Assembly (NCBI RefSeq): GCF_000468495.1
Contig: NC_022444.1
Coordinates: forward strand, 2,765,745 to 2,809,811
Source: Megalodesulfovibrio gigas DSM 1382 = ATCC 19364
GTDB taxonomy: Bacteria; Desulfobacterota; Desulfovibrionia; Desulfovibrionales; Desulfovibrionaceae
Length of the DNA stretch: 44,067 nt
Direction of reading: 5' to 3'
This document shows, one piece after another, positions 29,759 to 39,130 of the stretch. Each line of letters opens with the position of its first letter. Within the stretch, counting starts at the first letter, position 1. A model generated the notes under the pieces. It saw only the letters and a list, made by a program, of their open reading frames with translations, did no database searches and was not told where the DNA came from. The position numbers and the translations under genes are program-made.

Positions 29759-31693
29759 TTATGGCCCGCCCGGCGCCTCCTCCACCACCATTGGCAACAC
29801 GCCGTGCGCCTCATGGATCGCCTGGGCTGCGGCCTTGGCCGCCGGCAACGTGGCATAGTCCCCTACCCGCACGGCATGCACCCGGCCCAGCGCGCCGGGC
29901 AGCTCCACCCTGCGCGCATCCAGCCCCTTGGCCGCCCAGACTGCGCACTGACGCTCCGCCTCATCCTTTGATGCCGTGGAAGCCAGTTGCAACACAAAGC
30001 GGGTACCGGCCGGGGATGCGGCCGGCTTTCCTGGGGATGCGGCACCGGCGCTGCGCGAGCGCCCTTCTTCCTTGACCACCATGGCGGACAGCCCGGCCTC
30101 CGGAGCGTGCCGGGCAATCCAGTCCGCTCCTGCCGCCGAGGCCGCCTGGGCATTGGCGAAGTCGCCCACCTGCACGGCAACGCCGTGGGCCGGCACGTCG
30201 GTCACCACGGCCGGGCGTTCCTTGCTCGTCACCAGACGCCGAAACGCCTCGGCCTCGGCCCGCTTCTTGAACGGCCCTATCTGCACCTGCACCTGTCCGA
30301 CCACACCGCGCGAGGCAGTCTTGGCAAATTCCTCCACCGCCGGCGTAATGCGAGGCCGGCGCTCCACGCCGGGAGCCACCTCGTCCGGCTGCTCGGCTTC
30401 CGGCGCTTCGTCGGTGGCGTTGTCCTGCGCGTGCCGACGCGAACCGATCTGCTCCAGCACTTCGTCGGTCCTGGCCATCTCCATCAAGGCATTCAACCGG
30501 CTCTTGGTCTCTTCCATGGAGAGCAGCGGTTCCGCAGGAGCCGGCGGCGGCGGGGCCTGGGGTTCTTTCCAAACCACGTGCTCCACCGGCTCGGGCGTGC
30601 GGGTGAGCAACGGCAGCCGCACCCCGCGAGCACGCAGTTTGTCCATGGTCCGCACAGCCTGATCCCGGCCCGAACGCGTGGCGTCGAACGGCCCCACGCG
30701 CACCGTGTGCAGCACGCCTGCATCGCCCTGCAAGGATTCGATGAACACCTGGATGCCGTACTGCGCAAGGGAATCGGCATAGGCCACCGCCTCGGCATGC
30801 TCCCGATAGCTGCCCAACTGGACGGCCAGGGCCTCGCCCGCCGGCCCTGCACGCTCACTGCCCTGATCCGCCGACGGCTGGGCAAAATCCCACACCACCA
30901 CGGCATGCCACATCCCGGTGGAACGCAACACCGGCTTCACCACGGCGGGCAGACCGGCAGCCGTGCTGCGGCCGGCAAGGGCCTTGGCCTCGGCCTCGTC
31001 CAGAACCATGGCAGCCACGCCGGGCTCAATGCCGCGCAACAGGGCCAAGGCGGCCATCCCGGCTTCCGGAGTGATTGCACCGCCACTCGCGTTGCCAGTC
31101 GCGTTGCCAGTCGCATTGCCGGCAGCAGCCGCAGGAACCTTGGGCGTCAGAGAGATGGAAAGCTGCGCCTCCGGTTCGGGCATCGTCTCTTCAACCACCT
31201 TGAACGTCTTGGAAAGCAACGCCTTTCCCTGGTGCGAGACATCAAAGGTCCAGTCCCCGGGCGCAAGTTCCCAATCGGCCAGAAAGGTCCAGGCCACCAA
31301 CACCGGCACCCCGACACAGGCCGGCACTTCCCACTTCCGGCTGCGGACAGGCTCGGCATGGCCAGGCTGCTGCACCGGTGGATGCGAGAGTTCCACATCC
31401 AGCCGCGCCGGAGCGCCCTGCTTGCCGCCTTCGATCAGCAGTTCCATGCCAAACCGGGCCAGCAATTGCGCCGACACCGTCTCGCCCTGGCGCGCCAGTT
31501 TGGCATGCACGCCGGCGCAATCCATGCCCCTGGGGGCCGAGGAGACGTTTTCGCCATACATGCCGGCCGCCTTTGCCGTAGCGGTGAAGGCGGCTGCAGC
31601 GGGGACCCAGCCTAGCAGGAGAGACGCCACCGCCGCCACGGGCAGCAGGCAGCGGCAGCGCCCCTGCAACAAGACATGCGTGCAAGAGAACAT
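29759..31693 (-). CDS. Secreted DUF3859-like protein with several SPOR domains
   Basis: 644 aa. A signal-peptide-like N-terminus (residues about 12-36, LLPVAAVASLLLGWVPAAAAF) precedes a region of about 150 residues resembling DUF3859 (GMYGENVSS..., WTFLADWELAPGDWTFDVSHQGKALL). After a linker with an AGNATGNATGNASG repeat come at least three SPOR-like units: VQLGSYREHAEAVAYADSL, VQIGPFKKRAEAEAFRRLV followed by VAVQVGDFANAQ, and FVLQLASTASKDEAERQ with VRVGDYATLPAAKAAAQAI. SPOR domains bind denuded septal peptidoglycan, so a periplasmic, cell-wall-associated place is likely. It follows the gene at 31706 by 12 bases. ATG 31693 lacks a clear ribosome site. Confidence 0.75.
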   Translation of the reverse strand: MFSCTHVLLQGRCRCLLPVAAVASLLLGWVPAAAAFTATAKAAGMYGENVSSAPRGMDCAGVHAKLARQGETVSAQLLARFGMELLIEGGKQGAPARLDVELSHPPVQQPGHAEPVRSRKWEVPACVGVPVLVAWTFLADWELAPGDWTFDVSHQGKALLSKTFKVVEETMPEPEAQLSISLTPKVPAAAAGNATGNATGNASGGAITPEAGMAALALLRGIEPGVAAMVLDEAEAKALAGRSTAAGLPAVVKPVLRSTGMWHAVVVWDFAQPSADQGSERAGPAGEALAVQLGSYREHAEAVAYADSLAQYGIQVFIESLQGDAGVLHTVRVGPFDATRSGRDQAVRTMDKLRARGVRLPLLTRTPEPVEHVVWKEPQAPPPPAPAEPLLSMEETKSRLNALMEMARTDEVLEQIGSRRHAQDNATDEAPEAEQPDEVAPGVERRPRITPAVEEFAKTASRGVVGQVQVQIGPFKKRAEAEAFRRLVTSKERPAVVTDVPAHGVAVQVGDFANAQAASAAGADWIARHAPEAGLSAMVVKEEGRSRSAGAASPGKPAASPAGTRFVLQLASTASKDEAERQCAVWAAKGLDARRVELPGALGRVHAVRVGDYATLPAAKAAAQAIHEAHGVLPMVVEEAPGGP

Positions 31694-31705: not shown

Positions 31706-32533
31706 TTATTCCACGATAAGCTGTTGTTGCCGGGCCCGAGGGGCCGCGGTCGGAAGGGGGGCCGCTGGCGCAGAGGGGGAGGACTCCTGCGCTTGCGGCG
31801 CGCCCGGCGCCTGGGCCGGGGGTTCGTCCTTCCACTGAATGGACCATGCACCCTCGCCGTCCACATAAAAGGCATACTGCCCGCCAGTTTCGAGGACGAG
31901 TTGCGTTGTGGCGTTGTCCGGCCCCTGCAGCTCGAACAACGGCAGCTCCGCCGAACCGTCCTGCGGCAGCAGCAGCACCACGGCCACGTCTTCCCCTTGA
32001 TACTCCAGGGCAATCGTCTTGCTTCCCGGGGTCAGTTCCAAAAAGGCGCTTCGAAAATCCCCGAGTCCGGCAAGGTTGAAGCCGATTTTTTTGCGCTGCG
32101 TGGTGGTGGTCGGCGCCACAGGATTCTTCCCCACGGTATCGTCCATCCGATAGGTGACGTCGTATGACGCCGGCTGGCCATCCTGCAGGCCCACAAATAC
32201 CTCCAGAAGGGCACGCTGGGTGGGCTTGAGGGGCGGCAGACTGATGGTGCGGCGCCACATCTCGCCGCCTTCCCGCTTCTGGGCCACGATTTCCACCTGC
32301 ACCCCGGCGAGTACATGGGTGGAAACATTCAGGATCACGCCCCGGAAATAGCCGCGCTCATCCACGCCGAATTCGCGGGTTCCGAAATAGTCAGGATCCA
32401 GATCGATGAGCTTGGCGCATGCCCAGGGCGCATGCCCCGCCACCCCGGCCAGGGCCAGGGCCAGCACCAGCAGCCACCACCGCCCCGCCGGGACGGCACG
32501 CTGCATGAAACCAGTGAACGATGTACGGACCAT
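31706..32533 (-). CDS. Hypothetical exported protein, partner of SPOR protein
   Basis: 275 aa, unrecognised. The N-terminal helix (WWLLVLALALAGVAGHAPWACA) is a signal peptide or anchor, followed by LIDLDPDYFGTREFGVDERGYFRGVILNVSTHVLAGVQVEIVA, a beta-rich domain with an NVS-type strand typical of FxLYD-like secreted modules, then a second beta region and a proline/alanine-rich tail (about 235-270). GAGGAG lies 7 bases before the ATG. The 267-base region upstream (32534-32800) holds only candidate promoters. Probably an operon with the SPOR protein. Confidence 0.7.
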   Translation of the reverse strand: MVRTSFTGFMQRAVPAGRWWLLVLALALAGVAGHAPWACAKLIDLDPDYFGTREFGVDERGYFRGVILNVSTHVLAGVQVEIVAQKREGGEMWRRTISLPPLKPTQRALLEVFVGLQDGQPASYDVTYRMDDTVGKNPVAPTTTTQRKKIGFNLAGLGDFRSAFLELTPGSKTIALEYQGEDVAVVLLLPQDGSAELPLFELQGPDNATTQLVLETGGQYAFYVDGEGAWSIQWKDEPPAQAPGAPQAQESSPSAPAAPLPTAAPRARQQQLIVE

Positions 32534-32636: not shown

Positions 32637-32800
32637 CAAGGATGAAATTTCTTTAATCAACATTACAAAAACGCACGCACTCTGCAGCGGTGCGCCTGCC
32701 GCACCGGCATACGTTGTTGCAATATCCATCCATCCACCTGCTTTCCGTGTTGTGCCTGCATCAACACAGAAGCGCATCGTTTCAGGAGTGGTGTTCAAAC

Positions 32801-33508
32801 ATGATAATGAAACTGCTTGCATTCCTGTTTGCCGCATGCATCATGTCCCAGACACCTCCGGCAGTTGCCGCCGGCGCACAGCCCGTCACCTGGACGGACC
32901 CCCTGAGCGGCATTGCGTTTGTCTGGATCCCGGGCGGCTGTTTCGAGATGGGCATGACGCCTGCGGAAGAAGCGGCCCTGCGCGCCTCGGTGCCTGAGCG
33001 GTTCTTTGCCAAGCACTACGGCGACGAGCCCCGCCGCCAGGCCTGCCCCGAGGGCTTCTGGATGGCCACGCGCGAGATCACCCAGGCCCAATGGACCGCC
33101 GTGACCGGCATGCCGCCCCAGCACTGCATCGATGCCCAGGGAGAAACGCTGCCCGTCACCTGGGTGCCCTGGCTTGAAGCCGCCGCCTTTGCCCGCGCCC
33201 TGAACGGGCTGCATAACGGCACCCAGTCCTTTGCCCTGCCCAGCGAGGCCCAGTGGGAGACGGCCTGCCGCCAGCAGGCTGCCGGTGGATCGGGCCGTGC
33301 CGAGGCGCTCCGAGGCCTGCTCGACGCGCCCGACGAATGGGTGGACGAGTACTACACCGCCGACGGCCAGCCCCCGGCCGTGGAAGATCCTGCCGCCATG
33401 CGTGTGCTTAAGGGCGAACGCTGCTCCAACCGCCGCGGCGCGGTGCCCGGCTATGTACACTGCGGCGTGGGGTTCCGCCTGGTGCGGCTGGCGCCAGGGC
33501 CGCAATAA
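32801..33508 (+). CDS. Secreted FGE-sulfatase (SUMF1-like) domain protein
   Basis: 235 aa with a signal peptide (MIMKLLAFLFAACIMSQTPPAVAA). The formylglycine-generating-enzyme-like fold shows FVWIPGGCFEMGM at the start, EGFWMATREITQAQWTAVTG, PVTWVPWLEAAAFARAL, FALPSEAQWETACR, and CSNRRGAVPGYVHCGVGFRLVR at the end. Most bacterial members are not true FGEs. The paired catalytic cysteines of FGE are not evident here, so enzymatic sulfatase activation is doubtful. The domain is somewhat short. AGGAG lies 12 bases before ATG 32801. Convergent with the pseudopilin operon. Confidence 0.82.
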   Translation: MIMKLLAFLFAACIMSQTPPAVAAGAQPVTWTDPLSGIAFVWIPGGCFEMGMTPAEEAALRASVPERFFAKHYGDEPRRQACPEGFWMATREITQAQWTAVTGMPPQHCIDAQGETLPVTWVPWLEAAAFARALNGLHNGTQSFALPSEAQWETACRQQAAGGSGRAEALRGLLDAPDEWVDEYYTADGQPPAVEDPAAMRVLKGERCSNRRGAVPGYVHCGVGFRLVRLAPGPQ

Positions 33509-33586: not shown

Positions 33587-36067
33587 TCAGTCGTCAAAGT
33601 CGTTGCATTCCGCACAGGCGCGTTCATCGATGGGAATATCCTTCGGTGCGCGGAACTGCATGATGATATTGCTGAAGTTGGCCTCCTGCGTGGCGCCGCC
33701 CGTGGCCTGGGTGATCCCGAGCAGGAAGGTGTCGAACTTGTTGTGGTCCGCTGTACTCAGATAAAAGGTGCGTTCCAGGGCTGGCGGGTTCTTATCGGTA
33801 TCCAAGTCCCCGGACGTATCCGCGAAGTACGAGTTGATGTACTTTGGGCAGTAGTTGGCCTTGTCGGCGGTTGACGGGTTGTCGCATCGCCGCACCCAGA
33901 CGATCATCCGATACGGATGGTAGGGATTGGAGGCGTCGCCATGGGTGCCGTCGGTCACCGTTGCGTCAGGGTCATAGACGTCCGCCTCAAAGTCTGCCTT
34001 GCCGCGGTGCACTTCCATACGGATGGCGAGGTTCTGCTTAAACAGCTTCCAGTTTGTGGAGTTGCCCATGACCTCCGCCCCGTTGTCATAGCTGGTGGGA
34101 TTGGCACTGTCAGTGATGACGGGGAAGACGGCGGACTCATAGGTCCTCGACGTATTGTTGGCCAGCTTGCCCGCCCGCTGAAAATTGGGCGGATCGAAGA
34201 GGACGTAGAAAATCATGTCCCTGGAGGAGTCCGTACTCCAGTTGGACCCGTTGTACGTGGCGAAGTTGCCGGGATGCGTCGGCGCGGTGCTATCCACCTG
34301 CACGCGCAGGTTGCTGTCTGAGTTGCTGGTGCCATATTCCAGCACCAGGGCGTACCACCCCGGCGTCAGCAAGTCGGATTTGCTGGTGCTCCAGGTGCCG
34401 GTAAAGTTGAAGCCGACGAACACCGCAGTGCCATCGGTGTAGATGCATTCCTTGGTGCTGGAGGAGGTGGTGCCGTCCGTGGGCAGGATGCGGTCGGTGA
34501 CGGTGTCAGTATTGGCAGTGCTTTCGGCCAGATACCCGCCCGTGGGCACACGGCCGGACCCGGATGTCGTGGTGGCGTAGATATATGCCTTCAGGTTCTT
34601 GCCAATTTTCGTGCCGGCCGGGGTGCGCAGGTAGATGTGTGCCTGGGCAGGACGCAGCGGCTCCTCCAGATAAAACGTCTGCGCCACCCGCCGGACAGAC
34701 GACGTGCGCATGGTCACTTCATTGTCGCGGTTGGCGACAGGATTATGGTACTGCAGAGGGTTCCACATCCAGCTTTCGCGGGTGTGCTGGTTGTCGTCAT
34801 AGGTGGAGGAGCCGGCAGCGTTGGAGTATTTCCCGCCTGTGGACGCGGAATACGCGCTGGTGCTTTCTGCCTTGTACCAGGCGCAGCCCCAGGGCAGATC
34901 CAATCCCCAGCCGACGAACGCGATATGGTCAAAGGCGCCCGGGCCAGAGCCGCCGCCATAGTCGTAGCGGCTGGCCCCTGTTGGCTCTGTTTTACGATAC
35001 CAATATTGCGACTTGGACTGGTTGTTGGAGTACCCGCAGATCCTTTTCCCTTCGTTGCCGTAGTTGTCGATTTCCACCCCCAGCTTGGGCGCCTGGATGC
35101 CGTCGGCTCCAGGATCGACAAATCTGGTCAGGGTCGATCCGGAATACACCCGCGAGTCTCCGGCATAGGCGATCATTTCGCCCCATTTCGAGTTCCCACC
35201 CACGGCGTACTTGTCGTTGTTGTCGCCGTTGAACAGGGTGATGACCAGCCCGTCGGCATCGTTTTGTTCATACCAGACGGTCATGAAGAAGCGCATGCCG
35301 AGCTTGAAGTCGCACTCGCCCTCCACGCAGGTATTGTACTTGAAGTTACGACTGCCGGTGAAGGTGGCGATGCCGAAGTTGTTGAACTCGCCCGCGCCCA
35401 CGCTGAAGGCGTTGGGGCCGTCCACCTCGCCAGGCGTCACTTCCTTGCCGTCGGAGCCGCCGTATTCCGACTCCGACGCCGAGCCACGACGCGCCCGGCT
35501 GCTGTAGGAGATGTCGTCCTTGCCATCGACCTTTTTCGTGCCCTGCTTGGTGGGATCCGAATTGATGACTGTGAAATCCTCGAAGTCTTCCTGCACGGAG
35601 CTGGCAATAGCGGAAGAATCCTCCTGGGCCTCGCCCTCCATGTAATAGGTCGCCTCGCGGGCTGTGCCCGGGGCGGCAACGCCGAGAATGCCGGCCTGCA
35701 CCTTGAGGCTGGTGAGCCGCTGCACGGAGGTGAAGGTGTACTGCCCGATGAGGTTGCCCTGGTCGTCATGCACCTCGAAGATCTGGTCCTTCAGGCTTCG
35801 GTGATTCGTGGGCACGGTGTTCAGATAAGCCAGGCCTGCCATGGCGACGTAGCGGGCCTGCATGATGTAATGCTCGCGCAGCTGACTAAACTGCGTGGTG
35901 GAGGTGATGGACACCATGGCCGCCGCAACGGCGGCCACCACGGTGATGATGATGGTGACATACACCAGCGAGAAGCCCTGCATGGTGCCGTGCGCAGTCC
36001 GGCAGGCAGTCTTGGACGCAGGAGATGGCTGGCCCCCTGGACATGAAATGGAAGTGGCGACGTACAT
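33587..36067 (-). CDS. Large PilX/GspK-like prepilin with lectin-like region
   Basis: 826 aa. AGGAG 8 bases before ATG 36067 fixes the start. A long leader of 31 residues ends in QG, followed by FSLVYVTIIITVVAAVAAAMVS, a class III prepilin signal and helix in which the usual Glu5 is Tyr36. Lack of Glu5 is a mark of GspK, the tip pseudopilin. A pilin-like part (about 60-165) leads to a region (about 215-460) resembling L-type/ConA-like lectins (ADGLVITLFNGDN, KLGVEIDNYGNEGK), then about 360 further beta-rich, Ser/Thr-rich residues with Cys pairs. By position and size it may be the filament tip adhesin. Last gene of the sigma-led operon, 26 bases after the previous gene. Confidence 0.78.
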   Translation of the reverse strand: MYVATSISCPGGQPSPASKTACRTAHGTMQGFSLVYVTIIITVVAAVAAAMVSITSTTQFSQLREHYIMQARYVAMAGLAYLNTVPTNHRSLKDQIFEVHDDQGNLIGQYTFTSVQRLTSLKVQAGILGVAAPGTAREATYYMEGEAQEDSSAIASSVQEDFEDFTVINSDPTKQGTKKVDGKDDISYSSRARRGSASESEYGGSDGKEVTPGEVDGPNAFSVGAGEFNNFGIATFTGSRNFKYNTCVEGECDFKLGMRFFMTVWYEQNDADGLVITLFNGDNNDKYAVGGNSKWGEMIAYAGDSRVYSGSTLTRFVDPGADGIQAPKLGVEIDNYGNEGKRICGYSNNQSKSQYWYRKTEPTGASRYDYGGGSGPGAFDHIAFVGWGLDLPWGCAWYKAESTSAYSASTGGKYSNAAGSSTYDDNQHTRESWMWNPLQYHNPVANRDNEVTMRTSSVRRVAQTFYLEEPLRPAQAHIYLRTPAGTKIGKNLKAYIYATTTSGSGRVPTGGYLAESTANTDTVTDRILPTDGTTSSSTKECIYTDGTAVFVGFNFTGTWSTSKSDLLTPGWYALVLEYGTSNSDSNLRVQVDSTAPTHPGNFATYNGSNWSTDSSRDMIFYVLFDPPNFQRAGKLANNTSRTYESAVFPVITDSANPTSYDNGAEVMGNSTNWKLFKQNLAIRMEVHRGKADFEADVYDPDATVTDGTHGDASNPYHPYRMIVWVRRCDNPSTADKANYCPKYINSYFADTSGDLDTDKNPPALERTFYLSTADHNKFDTFLLGITQATGGATQEANFSNIIMQFRAPKDIPIDERACAECNDFDD

Positions 36068-36093
36068 AAGAAGTGCTCCTGATTGCGAAGCGG

Positions 36094-36627
36094 CTAGGAG
36101 AAATGGAAAATGACGGGCTGAATGCGGGTGGTGAAGGTTCTTTGGCTTCTTCCGCTCCCCCCACCGGTATCCGCCCCGCCCACAGTCACTTCCACTTCTA
36201 TGACTTCCGTTGTGGCGTTGTTGAAGCTCGATGTCGGATTGCACGTCGTATCGCTGGTGGTGCAATAGCGGAGGGTGAAGCCAAGCACATTATCCAGCAG
36301 AACATCACCATCGAGCAGCAGGTTGTCGTTGGTGTACGTCAGGGTCACGGGATTCAGCACGCCATCGGCGAACTTGAACCGGGGCCGATAGGTGATGCTG
36401 GTTTGCGTGCCGGCAGTGACTTCCGCCAGATGCTGCAATTCCACATACATTCTGCTCAGGGCCACCTGGGTTTTCTGGGCCATTCGCAAATGGTCCGTGG
36501 ACATGACATATGAGCGCATGACCTCGGCCATGCCCATGGTTCCCGCAGCTGCCACCATCCCCAGGATGACCAGCGCAGCGACCATTTCCACCAGGGAAAA
36601 TCCGCGTTGTGTTGCCCGAATCCGCAT
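36094..36627 (-). CDS. PilW/GspJ-like prepilin
   Basis: 177 aa. Leader MRIRATQRG with cleavage before FSLVEMVAALVILGMVAAAGTM: intact Gly-1, Glu5 and hydrophobic helix. The rest is a small beta-rich pilin domain (SYVMSTDHLRMAQKTQVAL, then ITYRPRFKFADGVLN, and two Cys in RYCTTSDTTCNP that may form a disulfide). Starts 9 bases after the preceding pseudopilin stop. Third pseudopilin of the operon; matches the J/W position of HIJK-type sets. Confidence 0.85.
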   Translation of the reverse strand: MRIRATQRGFSLVEMVAALVILGMVAAAGTMGMAEVMRSYVMSTDHLRMAQKTQVALSRMYVELQHLAEVTAGTQTSITYRPRFKFADGVLNPVTLTYTNDNLLLDGDVLLDNVLGFTLRYCTTSDTTCNPTSSFNNATTEVIEVEVTVGGADTGGGSGRSQRTFTTRIQPVIFHFS

Positions 36628-36636
36628 GCTCGTCTC

Positions 36637-37176
36637 CTATCTGCCAATAAACAGGGTCATCTGCTGGGGATTGACCGTGCTGTTGCTCTGCAACACCACC
36701 CGCAGCTGCTGCATGTCCAGGGTGTCCGTATCCTGCACTTGCACGCATTCGATGTCCGTAATGGTGATGTTGCCATACTTGCTGGCATTGGCCTCCAGTT
36801 CCGTCTGAAACAGCATCAGCGCAGAAAAGTGGCCAGCCCCTTCCTCCACGGCTGTGGCATTGTTTCTGGGGTTGTACCGCGGCATGCTGGCGTTGCACAC
36901 GTCAAAGTCTTCCGGCGGGGAATCCAGCCAGCTGCGCGCATAGTTGTTGTAGTAGTCCGCCAGGATGTTTTCCATGGCATATTCCAGGCTCTTGTCCGCC
37001 CGCAGGGATTGCACGGGCGCGTCAATGGTGGTCCCTGTCTGCATGAAGGAAAAGACCGCCGCCCCGACAACGGCCAGCAGGCTCAGGGTGGCGATGGTGT
37101 CGACCAACGTGAAGCCGGTCGCCGGAGAGATGTGCCGCGGGGGGCCGGCGGCTGCCGCGCGAAGAGAGCTGCTCAT
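36637..37176 (-). CDS. PilV/GspI-like prepilin
   Basis: 179 aa. The start at 37176 overlaps the previous stop (ATGA). Leader MSSSLRAAAAGPPRHISPATG with cleavage before FTLVDTIATLSLLAVVGAAVFSF. Asp stands at position 5 in place of Glu, a conservative change. The soluble part has ADYYNNYARSWLDSP and two Cys. Second pseudopilin of the operon. Confidence 0.82.
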   Translation of the reverse strand: MSSSLRAAAAGPPRHISPATGFTLVDTIATLSLLAVVGAAVFSFMQTGTTIDAPVQSLRADKSLEYAMENILADYYNNYARSWLDSPPEDFDVCNASMPRYNPRNNATAVEEGAGHFSALMLFQTELEANASKYGNITITDIECVQVQDTDTLDMQQLRVVLQSNSTVNPQQMTLFIGR

Positions 37177-37685
37177 TGGATGAACCCCGTATTTTGCGTC
37201 AGAACGAAACTGCCCACACTTGACCCAGAGGGCAACGCACTGGCCTGCACCGTAACGGTGGTGTCGGCGGTCAATGCCACGCCCTGGCAGTCGCACGGTT
37301 GTCCGCGGTTGTTGAAGGCGATGTTCTGTGAGCCGAACAGGGACACCCCGTGGGGAACGCCATACGTGACGGAATCGTGCCCAGGGATGCGCACCAGGCG
37401 CACGTCATCCGGCTGCGCGGTGCAGTTGCGCTGCAGTTCATAGGTGTCGCCGTTGATATTGATATTCCAGAGTTCGTCATCACCCATGGCCATGACCTGG
37501 GCAAAGCGCAAGGTGGCCTGCAGGGCCTGCACCTCGGCATGGTAATTGACCTCCATCGTATTGAACCGCGTGGCGACGAAGCCGGCAAGCAGACCAAGGA
37601 TGATCAACGTGACGACCAGTTCTATCAAGGTGAACCCGGCCTGCATCCAGGAACGGGCGACTGCGCAATGGACCTGCTCAGGCAT
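37173..37685 (-). CDS. FimT/GspH-like prepilin
   Basis: 170 aa. Leader MPEQVHCAVARSWMQAG with cleavage before FTLIELVVTLIILGLLAGFVATRF, a textbook type IV prepilin N-terminus with Glu5. The rest (EVQALQATLRFAQVMAMGDDELWNI) is typical of FimT/GspH minor pilins. Its start overlaps the anti-sigma gene end by 8 bases, and its stop overlaps the next start by 4, so the set is translationally coupled. First of four pseudopilins. Confidence 0.88.
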   Translation of the reverse strand: MPEQVHCAVARSWMQAGFTLIELVVTLIILGLLAGFVATRFNTMEVNYHAEVQALQATLRFAQVMAMGDDELWNININGDTYELQRNCTAQPDDVRLVRIPGHDSVTYGVPHGVSLFGSQNIAFNNRGQPCDCQGVALTADTTVTVQASALPSGSSVGSFVLTQNTGFIQ

Positions 37686-38370
37686 GGCGTCGTTCTCCTG
37701 CACATGTGAACAAAATGGTTCCAAGAAACGATCCCAACACCAGACCGCAGCCAGACAAGGCCACGGCGGCAAGCACTGCGCCGTGTGCCGCAAAGCTGGC
37801 GGCAATGCCCAGCCCGTTGCCCAGCACCACTGCCATGTACACCACCAGGCCCAGCCGGGCCAGGGCGCGGGTTGCAGGCGTGCGCCGGGCGGCCAGCATC
37901 CCCAGGCAGAACAGCAGCGCGGCCAGCGCATAGGCCAGCTCCGGCTGACGTCCCACCAGACTGGGAAACATGTGCGCATAGCCCTGCAGCTCTGCCGCCA
38001 GCACCAGCCCCATGCCCACATGCAGCAGCCCGACAAAATGGAAAAAATAATGACACCGCCCGGCGGTGGCGGCAATGATGCGTCCCGGCAGCCAGGCCGC
38101 GACGCCAAGCTGGCGCTGGTACCAGTCCTGCAGTCGCCCGCCCAGGCCCGGACGCCTGAGGGGCACCCCGGCCATGACCCGGCTGCACAGCCCCGGGGGC
38201 GGCAGGGCGCGCTCGCCGTGGCGCAGCACAAGGGCCAGGCCCTCCAGCTCCGCCAGACAGCCCGCCACGTCCCCGCCAGCAGGCAGGACAGCGCGCAACT
38301 CGTGGCGCTCCTCGCTGGTCAGGCCACGAACCGCCGGCTGCAGGGTTTCGTTCTCCAGTTCATGTCGCAT
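37678..38370 (-). CDS. Putative membrane anti-sigma factor
   Basis: 230 aa. A soluble N-terminus of about 100 residues (MRHELENETLQPAVRGLTSEERHEL, acidic/helical) is followed by about four or five membrane helices (FFHFVGLLHVGMGLVLAAEL, LAYALAALLFCLGMLA, LVVYMAVVLGNGLGIAASF, LAAVALSGCGLVLGSFLGTIL). CGGAG lies 5 bases before ATG 38370. No HxxxCxxC zinc motif is seen. The anti-sigma role is inferred from its place 37 bases after an ECF sigma gene and its soluble-plus-membrane layout. Confidence 0.65.
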   Translation of the reverse strand: MRHELENETLQPAVRGLTSEERHELRAVLPAGGDVAGCLAELEGLALVLRHGERALPPPGLCSRVMAGVPLRRPGLGGRLQDWYQRQLGVAAWLPGRIIAATAGRCHYFFHFVGLLHVGMGLVLAAELQGYAHMFPSLVGRQPELAYALAALLFCLGMLAARRTPATRALARLGLVVYMAVVLGNGLGIAASFAAHGAVLAAVALSGCGLVLGSFLGTILFTCAGERRHA

Positions 38371-38407
38371 CAAAACTCCGTCCGGTGTTTCCCGTGTCTT
38401 CCCGATC

Positions 38408-39016
38408 TCAACCCCGTACATGGCCGGGCAGGGTTTCCCGCAATCTGGCCAGCCCGCGATAGACCCGCATCTTGGCCGCCTGTTCGGAAATTCCCAGCAC
38501 TTCCGCCAGCTCCCTGAATGAAAGATCCTCGGTGAACCGCAACACCAGCGCTTCGCGCAGCTCCAGGGGCAACTGCATGAGATGCTGCGCAAGGGTGCGG
38601 CCCTGCTCGGTGCGAAACAACATCTCCTCGCCATCCGATGCAGCCATCCGGGCCTCGAAGGCGGTTCCGGCGGTCATGCTGGCGTCGTCCTCGGGCGGGC
38701 TGCCCTCCTCCACCAGATGCGCGCAGCCCGTCACCATCCGGCGTCCCCGCTTGTTTTGCCGAAACGCCGCATGGCGGCAGATGGCGAACATCCAGGGCGT
38801 CAGCCGGACGCCCGGCTCCAGCCGGAAGGTGCCGAGCTTGTCGTACATGCGGACAAAGGTTTCCTGGACCAGATCTTCCGCCTGATCCGCAGACCCGGTA
38901 AGCACGTACGCCATGTGAAAGAGCGGGTGCTGATACGCCTCCACCAGCAGCGCGAACGCCTCGCGGTCCCCGGCGAGCACCTGGCGGATGATGGAGTGTT
39001 CGCGTTCCTGGTCCAT
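38408..39016 (-). CDS. ECF-family RNA polymerase sigma factor
   Basis: 202 aa from ATG 39016. Sigma region 2 includes LVEAYQHPLFHMAYVLTGSADQAEDLVQETFVRMYDKL. A linker with PWMFAICRHAAFRQNKRGRR follows. Sigma region 4 is LPLELREALVLRFTEDLSFRELAEVLGISEQAAKMRVYRGLARLRE, with the helix-turn-helix. A TTG 33 bases upstream is also open. It heads the anti-sigma/pseudopilin operon and most likely directs its transcription. Direct repeats lie just upstream of the start. Confidence 0.93.
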   Translation of the reverse strand: MDQEREHSIIRQVLAGDREAFALLVEAYQHPLFHMAYVLTGSADQAEDLVQETFVRMYDKLGTFRLEPGVRLTPWMFAICRHAAFRQNKRGRRMVTGCAHLVEEGSPPEDDASMTAGTAFEARMAASDGEEMLFRTEQGRTLAQHLMQLPLELREALVLRFTEDLSFRELAEVLGISEQAAKMRVYRGLARLRETLPGHVRG

Positions 39017-39025
39017 GCTGTTGAA

Positions 39026-39052
39026 GACAATAGTCCCGAGGGGGCGCAATAG
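39026..39052 (-). promoter_or_regulatory. Direct repeat upstream of ECF sigma gene
   Basis: Read on the minus strand, GACTATTG occurs twice (39052-39045 and 39033-39026), 19 bases apart, ending 9 bases before the sigma start codon. The spacing of roughly two helical turns fits either tandem factor binding or the two elements of an autoregulated promoter with a very short leader. Confidence 0.35.
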
Positions 39053-39130
39053 TCACAGATTTTTTTACCATGCGTTAATCTTTTCGAAGCGCCCTTGCCT
39101 TGTCTGCAGTCCTGCCGCTAGAGTCCCGCC

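Follow-up and report, generated by a model that had tools for sequence, protein, structure and literature searches.

A prepilin operon led by an ECF sigma factor

The stretch of DNA analyzed here, hereafter the window, covers 44,067 nucleotides of the chromosome of the sulfate reducer Megalodesulfovibrio (Desulfovibrio) gigas (contig NC_022444.1, forward-strand positions 2,765,745 to 2,809,811; genome G000 in our samples) and contains a compact series of six minus-strand open reading frames (ORFs) extending from 39016 to 33587. In order of transcription they encode a sigma factor of the extracytoplasmic function (ECF) type, a membrane protein that is a candidate anti-sigma factor, and four prepilins resembling FimT/GspH, PilV/GspI, PilW/GspJ and GspK, the last being a very large protein with a lectin head (hereafter, the giant). 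The first two genes lie 37 nt apart, the next two junctions overlap by 8 and 4 nt, and the last two leave 9 and 26 nt, an arrangement that agrees with the initial annotation of this DNA, in which sigma factor, membrane anti-sigma candidate and prepilins had been taken as one unit. Its further remark that secretin, ATPase and PilY1 are missing also holds for the six genes, none of which encodes GspC-F or GspG either. Coordinates and family matches are collected in table 1.

The sigma factor has the sigma2 and sigma4 regions alone within about 200 residues, as in ECF proteins, and, of the four Sigma70_r2 matches in the genome, is the only one whose frame (214 aa) has the length of an ECF protein. 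The four consecutive prepilins carry class III signal peptides and follow the order H, I, J, K. The FimT-like gene starts at the ATG at 37685, while the PilV-like protein, which has Asp5 and no family match of its own in Pfam or NCBIfam, is assigned as I subunit by its position. As the initial annotation had stated, the last prepilin lacks Glu5 and resembles GspK, to which its N-terminus is weakly matched; with Tyr in place of Glu5 and 826 aa, the length given there, it fits a K subunit.

Table 1. Features of the sigma-led prepilin operon (positions are those of the window)
Feature	Position	Strand	Evidence
Candidate ECF promoter, TGTGACTATT-N12-GACTA	39031..39057	-	Ends 14 nt before sigma ATG
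ECF sigma factor, 202 aa from conserved ATG	38408..39016	-	Pfam Sigma70_r2 1.3e-14, r4_2 6.7e-12; NCBIfam sigma70-ECF
Membrane protein, anti-sigma candidate, 230 aa	37678..38370	-	Hydropathy; N-terminal segment of ~107 residues, then four predicted transmembrane helices
FimT/GspH-like prepilin, Glu5, 170 aa	37173..37685	-	N_methyl 3.4e-6; NCBIfam GspH 4.5e-10, under cut-off
PilV/GspI-like prepilin, Asp5, 179 aa	36637..37176	-	Signal G/FTLVDTIATL (cleavage at slash); module position; L075 orthologue
PilW/GspJ-like prepilin, Glu5, 177 aa	36094..36627	-	Pfam N_methyl 1.6e-7; homologues in many modules
Giant GspK-like prepilin with lectin head, 826 aa, Tyr5	33587..36067	-	Site G/FSLVYV; weak GspK N-terminal match (E 0.2)
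L-type lectin domain within the giant, interrupted by an insert at ~34048-34696	33638..35413	-	A7 family alignment, PF18483, AlphaFold model, legume-lectin Z 14-15

The sigma pair, its promoter and its recurrence with minor pilins

Just upstream of the sigma gene lies a two-box motif that looks like a promoter for autoregulation, with a regulon that would be narrow. It takes the form TGTGACYWTT-N12-GASTA in M. gigas and in the genomes G268, G332 and G670, and a variant, TGTTACCTTT-N11-GAGTA, precedes the sigma gene in G234 and G244. We recognized the motif by visual inspection of these upstream regions, an exact-word search for two boxes having been noisy. When searched without mismatches and with spacers of 10-13, the first form was found once in each of G000, G268, G332 and G670, always upstream of sigma, against 0, 0, 0 and 1 matches in the same genomes for the motif read backwards; allowing up to two mismatches, the window contained one match versus 0.14 expected. 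We compared the 250-bp regions preceding 18 sigma genes (G444 replacing L140, whose sigma gene is cut by the end of its contig), among which six had the motif without mismatch, two (L188 and L048) with two or three mismatches, and ten had none. The sigma ATG follows the -10-like box by 12-15 nt in four genomes (39016-39031 in the window), a short distance suggesting that the sigma mRNA may be almost leaderless.

The membrane protein has four hydrophobic segments, all situated beyond residue 107 by hydropathy, and matches no curated anti-sigma family of Pfam or NCBIfam over cut-off, its NCBIfam antisigma match (E 0.008) falling far under that threshold. Its N-terminal segment (64 columns) is nevertheless similar to that of proteins encoded beside sister ECF sigma factors (hhalign probability 96.7, E 4e-10). 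Behind this shared segment, the neighbors of sister sigma factors show a conserved FNxW region in six of the seven aligned, and both of those scanned contain the glycogen-binding domain AMPK1_CBM of Pfam (2.6e-9 and 5.7e-9). Given a shared N-terminal segment followed by differing C-terminal parts, a common sigma-binding part seems to have been joined to different sensing parts. Loci in which a sister ECF sigma gene is followed by that of a shared-segment protein ending in a domain of glycogen-binding type are L039, L040, L042, L046, L193 and L196, where it looks as if the pair senses glucan.

The membrane protein might instead be a pilus assembly or signaling protein, with the sigma factor controlled by transcription or degradation. 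We consider this unlikely, even if it draws some credit from the missing match to curated anti-sigma families, the absence of the Hx3Cx2C zinc motif in all 17 homologues, and the presence of four transmembrane helices with no clear sensor domain. Against it, the gene stands directly after that of the sigma factor in 16 of the 18 loci in which sigma and minor pilins are linked, and its N-terminal segment is similar to that of proteins encoded next to sister sigma factors.

The linked loci were collected from several samples. The giant was searched against 297 genomes of the order, of which 24 matched, the source genome included, and a scan of our genome collection gave 25 loci; the sigma profile and the lectin family were searched in samples of 395 genomes of the phylum. 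Prepilins were scanned around sigma matches at 30 returned loci from the sigma search of the order (six positive) and 30 from that of the phylum (ten positive), and gene lists were drawn up for 19 genomes of the phylum sigma search. The sigma factor accompanies minor pilins in 18 genomes belonging to several families of the phylum. Besides M. gigas, G268, G234 and G244 have the same six-gene order and the same flanks, in answer to the synteny check that had been proposed with the initial annotation; the 14 further genomes were recovered by the genome-collection scan (L139, Desulfobulbaceae; L140, L142, L145, Syntrophaceae), among order-level sigma matches (G020, G004) and by the phylum search (G572, G326, G596, G670, G423, G630, G558, G332). 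This distribution rules out that the coupling is a quirk of the genus: the coupling to an ECF sigma factor that had been called unusual is real and is no local oddity.

In L139 and L191, where the stretch extends far enough, the genes follow the order PilB-PilC-PilA-sigma-antisigma-FimT-PilV-PilW-giant, which L142 shares with one extra gene, encoding an HD-domain membrane protein (L142:5594-6559) that lies between the sigma factor and the anti-sigma candidate and is possibly a second-messenger link. The other locus in which the membrane-protein gene does not directly follow is L145, where the sigma gene has the opposite orientation and is located downstream of the module. No prepilin motif was found within the 1.5-kb flanks of the other top-scoring sigma matches scanned. 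G444 is among these: its sigma gene comes after PilC and a sigma54 activator and is followed by an AAA-type ORF up to the contig end, the minor pilins being on another contig. In a tree of 62 ECF sigma rows, the 19 linked rows (the 18 genomes plus G444) form one group together with a single unlinked sequence (L152 of G521), with support 93/86. L140 and L142, which had been filtered out of a first sigma tree, are included in this second one, from which L151 was excluded as a copy of L142; G538 and L142 are one genome.

An explanation that we regard as improbable is that the sigma factor and membrane protein are neighbors by descent alone, the pilins having a promoter of their own. In the four closest genomes synteny extends past the operon, to a MacB-like permease and an FGE-sulfatase-like gene, and their adjacency may therefore be inherited. 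Moreover, no such sigma factor lies near the module in 20 of the 23 stretches from the other giant-matching genomes of the order, where the pilus thus works without the switch. A scan for sigma70 promoters and terminators further returned a weak sigma70-like match inside fimT (37628-37600; three promoter-like matches found vs 1.4 expected) and, within the unit and on its own strand, terminator-like matches at 38074-38054, 37075-37054 and 36091-36075; the two strands of the region together gave eight terminator-like matches versus 4.0 expected. On the other side, the sigma gene adjoins the pilin genes in other families too, amid different flanking genes, pilin-linked sigma factors group together in the tree, and the overlaps and gaps of at most 37 nt leave little space for promoters between the genes. 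The flanking MacB-like/FGE-like synteny was itself discarded as evidence, because the whole neighborhood is conserved between two close genera.

Filament machinery and the lectin-bearing giant

In many neighborhoods of relatives, a similar prepilin series stands beside genes of the PilB, PilC, PilA and MshM types, with PilC on the same stretch as the module in 14 of 42 distinct module stretches (L075-L091 and L118-L148 minus six copies, several being short or ending at contig ends). Because relatives carry the module beside PilB, PilC and PilA, the four prepilins look like minor pilins of a type IV pilus (T4P) resembling the mannose-sensitive hemagglutinin (MSHA) pilus, rather than pseudopilins of a secretion system. 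The association with a type IV filament proposed in the initial annotation is hence consistent with both the H-I-J-K-like set and its company in relatives; of the term pseudopilins, the prepilin nature stands and the secretion type does not.

The T4P parts of M. gigas are dispersed along its 3,693,899-base chromosome contig (C2). A region devoid of pilins at C2:66-75 kb contains PilC, an MshM-like ATPase and a PilN-like gene along with a secretin match; a PilA of 130 aa is found at about C2:1434.4-1434.8 kb, two PilT-family genes near C2:2698 kb (over the NCBIfam cut-off) and one prepilin peptidase match near C2:206 kb. Chromosomal prepilins matched by Pfam N_methyl are PilA and two of those in the window, with no other minor-pilin set, a search that also misses the PilV-like protein and the giant of the window and could therefore miss a very divergent set. 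Next to PilC is a gene for a sigma54 activator (L110:7292-8614; Pfam 1.6e-71), which on this match replaced an earlier description as HAMP-like. The region upstream of pilA (L074:9369-9761) contains TGGCAC-N5-TTGC, which resembles the sigma54 consensus and fits the presence of the activator beside PilC. The major pilin thus seems to be controlled by sigma54, separately from the tip module, which would be under a different sigma factor.

PilY1-family genes were found in none of the four genomes with the exact operon (G000, G268, G234 and G244, one of them 87% complete), and the giant itself has no match to the PilY1 domain PF05567. The operon had been supposed to replace a minor-pilin/PilY1 module; the lack of PilY1 in these four genomes fits that proposal, whereas the operon is itself the minor-pilin module, and a PilY1-family gene is present in three other genomes (G538, G444 and G332) against none of 14 control genomes.

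M. gigas also possesses a type II secretion system (T2SS), located on its second contig of 102,023 bases; the genome paper gives a plasmid of 101,949 bp and notes the T2SS on it (PMC4287179), and the words 'pilus' and 'pili' are absent from the main text of that paper. Prepilins of the plasmid T2SS are GspG (7.5e-53) and, with a match under cut-off, a GspK-like protein (5.1e-29); between these lie three more, one with a weak GspH match, one with a weak GspI match and one matchless as framed. Part of the T2SS replicon, used as a query against the plasmid collection, gave no match. That the four prepilins of the window form a second pseudopilus tip set for this T2SS, the lectin serving as a substrate-handling head, is in our view very improbable: the system does exist on the 102-kb replicon, and type IV filaments reportedly can exchange their H, I, J and K subunits (PMC9934059), but the plasmid T2SS already has its own prepilins, on which ground the operon was rejected as a part of it, and the lectin module of relatives adjoins PilB, PilC, PilA and MshM of T4P type.

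The lectin region of the giant was studied at the level of its family, aligned as A7 (45 of the 47 lectin ORFs found, the copies L180 and L067 being dropped). The Pfam L-type lectin family PF18483 was matched by six of 14 giants (best 6.1e-7) and, in the wider family, by 28 of 45 members (best 1.8e-8); Lectin_legB (PF00139) was matched by three of 45, both counts being taken at E up to 0.1. Searched against the PDB, the family profile retrieved legume lectins (best E 0.004), with the ADG and VEFDTYxN stretches aligned; searches of Pfam, NCBIfam and PDB with the single giant, as well as the PDB search with a first alignment, were uninformative. The AlphaFold model of the lectin region obtained with 45 sequences has a predicted template-modeling score (pTM) of 0.63 and a mean predicted local distance difference test (pLDDT) of 65, with values of 81-94 for the blocks lying within its first 120 residues, mostly 62-93 across the final 130, and low ones in the insert. 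Its best alignment is to pea lectin, with Z 15.2 and a root-mean-square deviation of 2.8 over 176 residues, in a comparison that is a second look at Foldseek's own candidates; the 50 structure matches listed consist of plant lectins or agglutinins and the bacterial cell-surface protein YwfG. Residues D54, G55, G78, E114, D116 and N120, as well as an aromatic at 118, are invariant in 45 of 45 sequences. By analogy with legume lectins, we take the Asp of ADG, the Gly and the E-x-D-x-aromatic-x-N residues to be a putative calcium/sugar site. The lectin-like region of the initial annotation is thus right, as an L-type lectin domain by profile, modeled fold and conserved residues, with glycan binding as a prediction. 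In the giant of the window the domain is split by an extra segment of ~215 residues; three other giants have a PQQ_2-type beta-propeller match at the position of the insert (L127:9908-12022, L134:854-2743 and L146:11102-13003).

Position 5 of the giant family is Glu in none of the 36 members with a readable prepilin site and Tyr in 24 of them (nine of the 45 were unreadable, and L129, one of the 36, was misanchored by the pattern). In six sigma-linked loci (L183, L184, L186, L187, L188 and L191), PilW and the GspK-like giant are fused in one ORF of 1095-1235 aa (for instance L184:11802-15089, L188:5393-9055 and L191:11655-15158), which directly links the J and K subunits. In the fused ORFs the PilW part is followed by a CFVATAA(Y/F/W)G box, matched by CFI-box-CTERM in both of the two scanned (1.3e-23 and 5.4e-20), and then by a second prepilin site without Glu5, read by eye. 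A prepilin cleavage site inside a fused polyprotein is a processing puzzle.

Beyond the operon, an FGE-sulfatase-like protein (Pfam 7.6e-14) is encoded at 32690-33508, convergent to the giant, and has a counterpart near the giant in G268, G234 and G244 too. Also next to the operon are genes for a protein without family match over cut-off and a SPOR/DUF3859 protein (31706-32533 and 29759-31693). On the far side of its FGE-sulfatase-like gene, G244 has a second set of four prepilins (L077:2075-5610), with a GspK-like protein of 685 aa and no sigma factor.

A proposed switch for the adhesive pilus tip

We consider it probable that this locus is an ECF-autoregulated sigma/anti-sigma switch, which sets the supply of the lectin-bearing minor-pilin tip of a chromosomal MSHA-like T4P. 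As its position and profile similarity suggest, the four-helix membrane protein would keep the sigma factor inactive through its N-terminal segment for as long as no signal arrives. A cue from the envelope, perhaps the condition of minor pilins awaiting assembly, would release the sigma factor, which, to judge from the motif, would then transcribe its own operon from the promoter just upstream and yield more sigma, anti-sigma and the four prepilins. Trimming of prepilins by the prepilin peptidase, nucleation by minor pilins and T4P-driven assembly are established for the type IV filament family. Here, the trimmed I, J and K, followed by H, would start a filament whose major pilin is encoded separately and whose growth is powered by the T4P machinery, and K presumably caps this filament, because K is bulky and without Glu5. 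The lectin head borne by K would be displayed at the tip and, as predicted from its fold and site residues, bind glycan with calcium. By setting the ratio of minor to major pilins, the switch would determine pilus number and stickiness. Computation shows the operon, its protein families, the fold and conserved site of the lectin, the common sigma group and the promoter-like motif; the anti-sigma role, the autoregulation, the placement at the tip, the binding of glycan and the cue are what we infer within this scheme. More tentatively, and with considerable doubt, the four-helix protein could sense the state of the pilus tip in the membrane, through unassembled minor-pilin helices or their depletion, and free the sigma factor so that new tips are made in proportion to use or contact.

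Several observations weigh against the proposed switch, beginning with the sigma-free stretches of the order and the promoter- and terminator-like matches within the unit mentioned above. The candidate anti-sigma factor is called from its position and a short shared segment, and the promoter motif was derived from sequences that it then matched, being clear in six of 18 upstream regions. The support of the sigma group is just under the mark of the tree tool (95/80), and six PilB-like ATPases scattered on the chromosome are candidates for driving the pilus. Lectin-family matches occur in 12 of 395 phylum genomes and coincide with the sigma type in only three (G000, G444 and G538), sigma control and lectin head being therefore separable. 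Regarding the lectin, the giant of the window itself matches neither PF18483 nor PF00139, three family members scanned singly match PF18483 under its cut-off, and Foldseek alone placed just two phage baseplate chains at E <0.001, with legume lectins from rank 12. The model of the whole giant, based on nine sequences, was poor (mean pLDDT 47), which is why the lectin region was refolded with the larger alignment, and pLDDT is still <50 in 169 of 592 residues of that region.

Known systems share parts of this arrangement. In the MSHA system of Vibrio cholerae, MshM- and GspE-type ATPases and PilC are found near the pilin genes, and relatives of our module, with ATPases of the same types and PilC near their pilins, are alike in this respect; to our knowledge, the MSHA operon has no sigma factor, and MshQ, the candidate for its tip adhesin, differs from an L-type lectin of GspK-like kind. 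A close parallel comes from the T4P of Streptococcus sanguinis, in which glycans are bound by a lectin module on one of the minor pilins, which are modeled at the tip; its PilA, PilB and PilC resemble the proteins described here in their small minor-pilin operon, the proposed tip complex, a pilin with a lectin of the concanavalin A superfamily, one pilin without Glu5 and no PilY1 (PMC9934059). The S. sanguinis lectin, however, is galectin-like and borne by PilC, with the I-like PilA as the pilin lacking Glu5, whereas the M. gigas lectin is of L-type and borne by the K-like subunit; M. gigas further differs in having all four H-I-J-K-like genes, a diderm host and a sigma/anti-sigma pair leading the operon. 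In Pseudomonas aeruginosa, minor pilins feed back on their own operon (FimU-PilVWX-PilY1-PilE) via FimS-AlgR, so that a minor-pilin operon is likewise paired with a regulator answering to minor-pilin levels (PMC5979040); there the control is two-component and PilY1 the proposed adhesin, unlike the ECF sigma factor of M. gigas. A V. cholerae study reports that pilus dynamics are set by the minor-to-major pilin ratio (PMC13249403). With known ECF pairs our locus shares the order of a sigma factor and a co-encoded membrane protein whose N-terminal segment precedes the transmembrane part, and differs in the four transmembrane helices with little outside the membrane and in having minor pilins as operon target. 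No description of an ECF-controlled minor-pilin operon was found among the titles and abstract starts listed by searches of one open-access library, and pilus words were absent from the three ECF papers searched by word; the ECF reclassification may note a pilin context.

Minor pilins determine how many T4P are started and what the tips adhere to. Through an ECF switch of their own, cells could alter tip adhesion without remaking the whole machine, and the recurring pairing of switch and tip genes suggests that these bacteria may control an adhesive pilus tip independently of the rest of the pilus. If the membrane protein does sense the tip, the pair would be the first of the sigma/anti-sigma kind known to respond to pilus assembly, present in several families and combined with interchangeable tip adhesins. 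The system is compact, with one sigma factor, one putative membrane brake, one candidate promoter and four pilins, and would provide an instance, in a diderm and on the K subunit, of a pilin that bears a lectin as in S. sanguinis, under a switch that appears common to deep branches of sulfate reducers and syntrophs.

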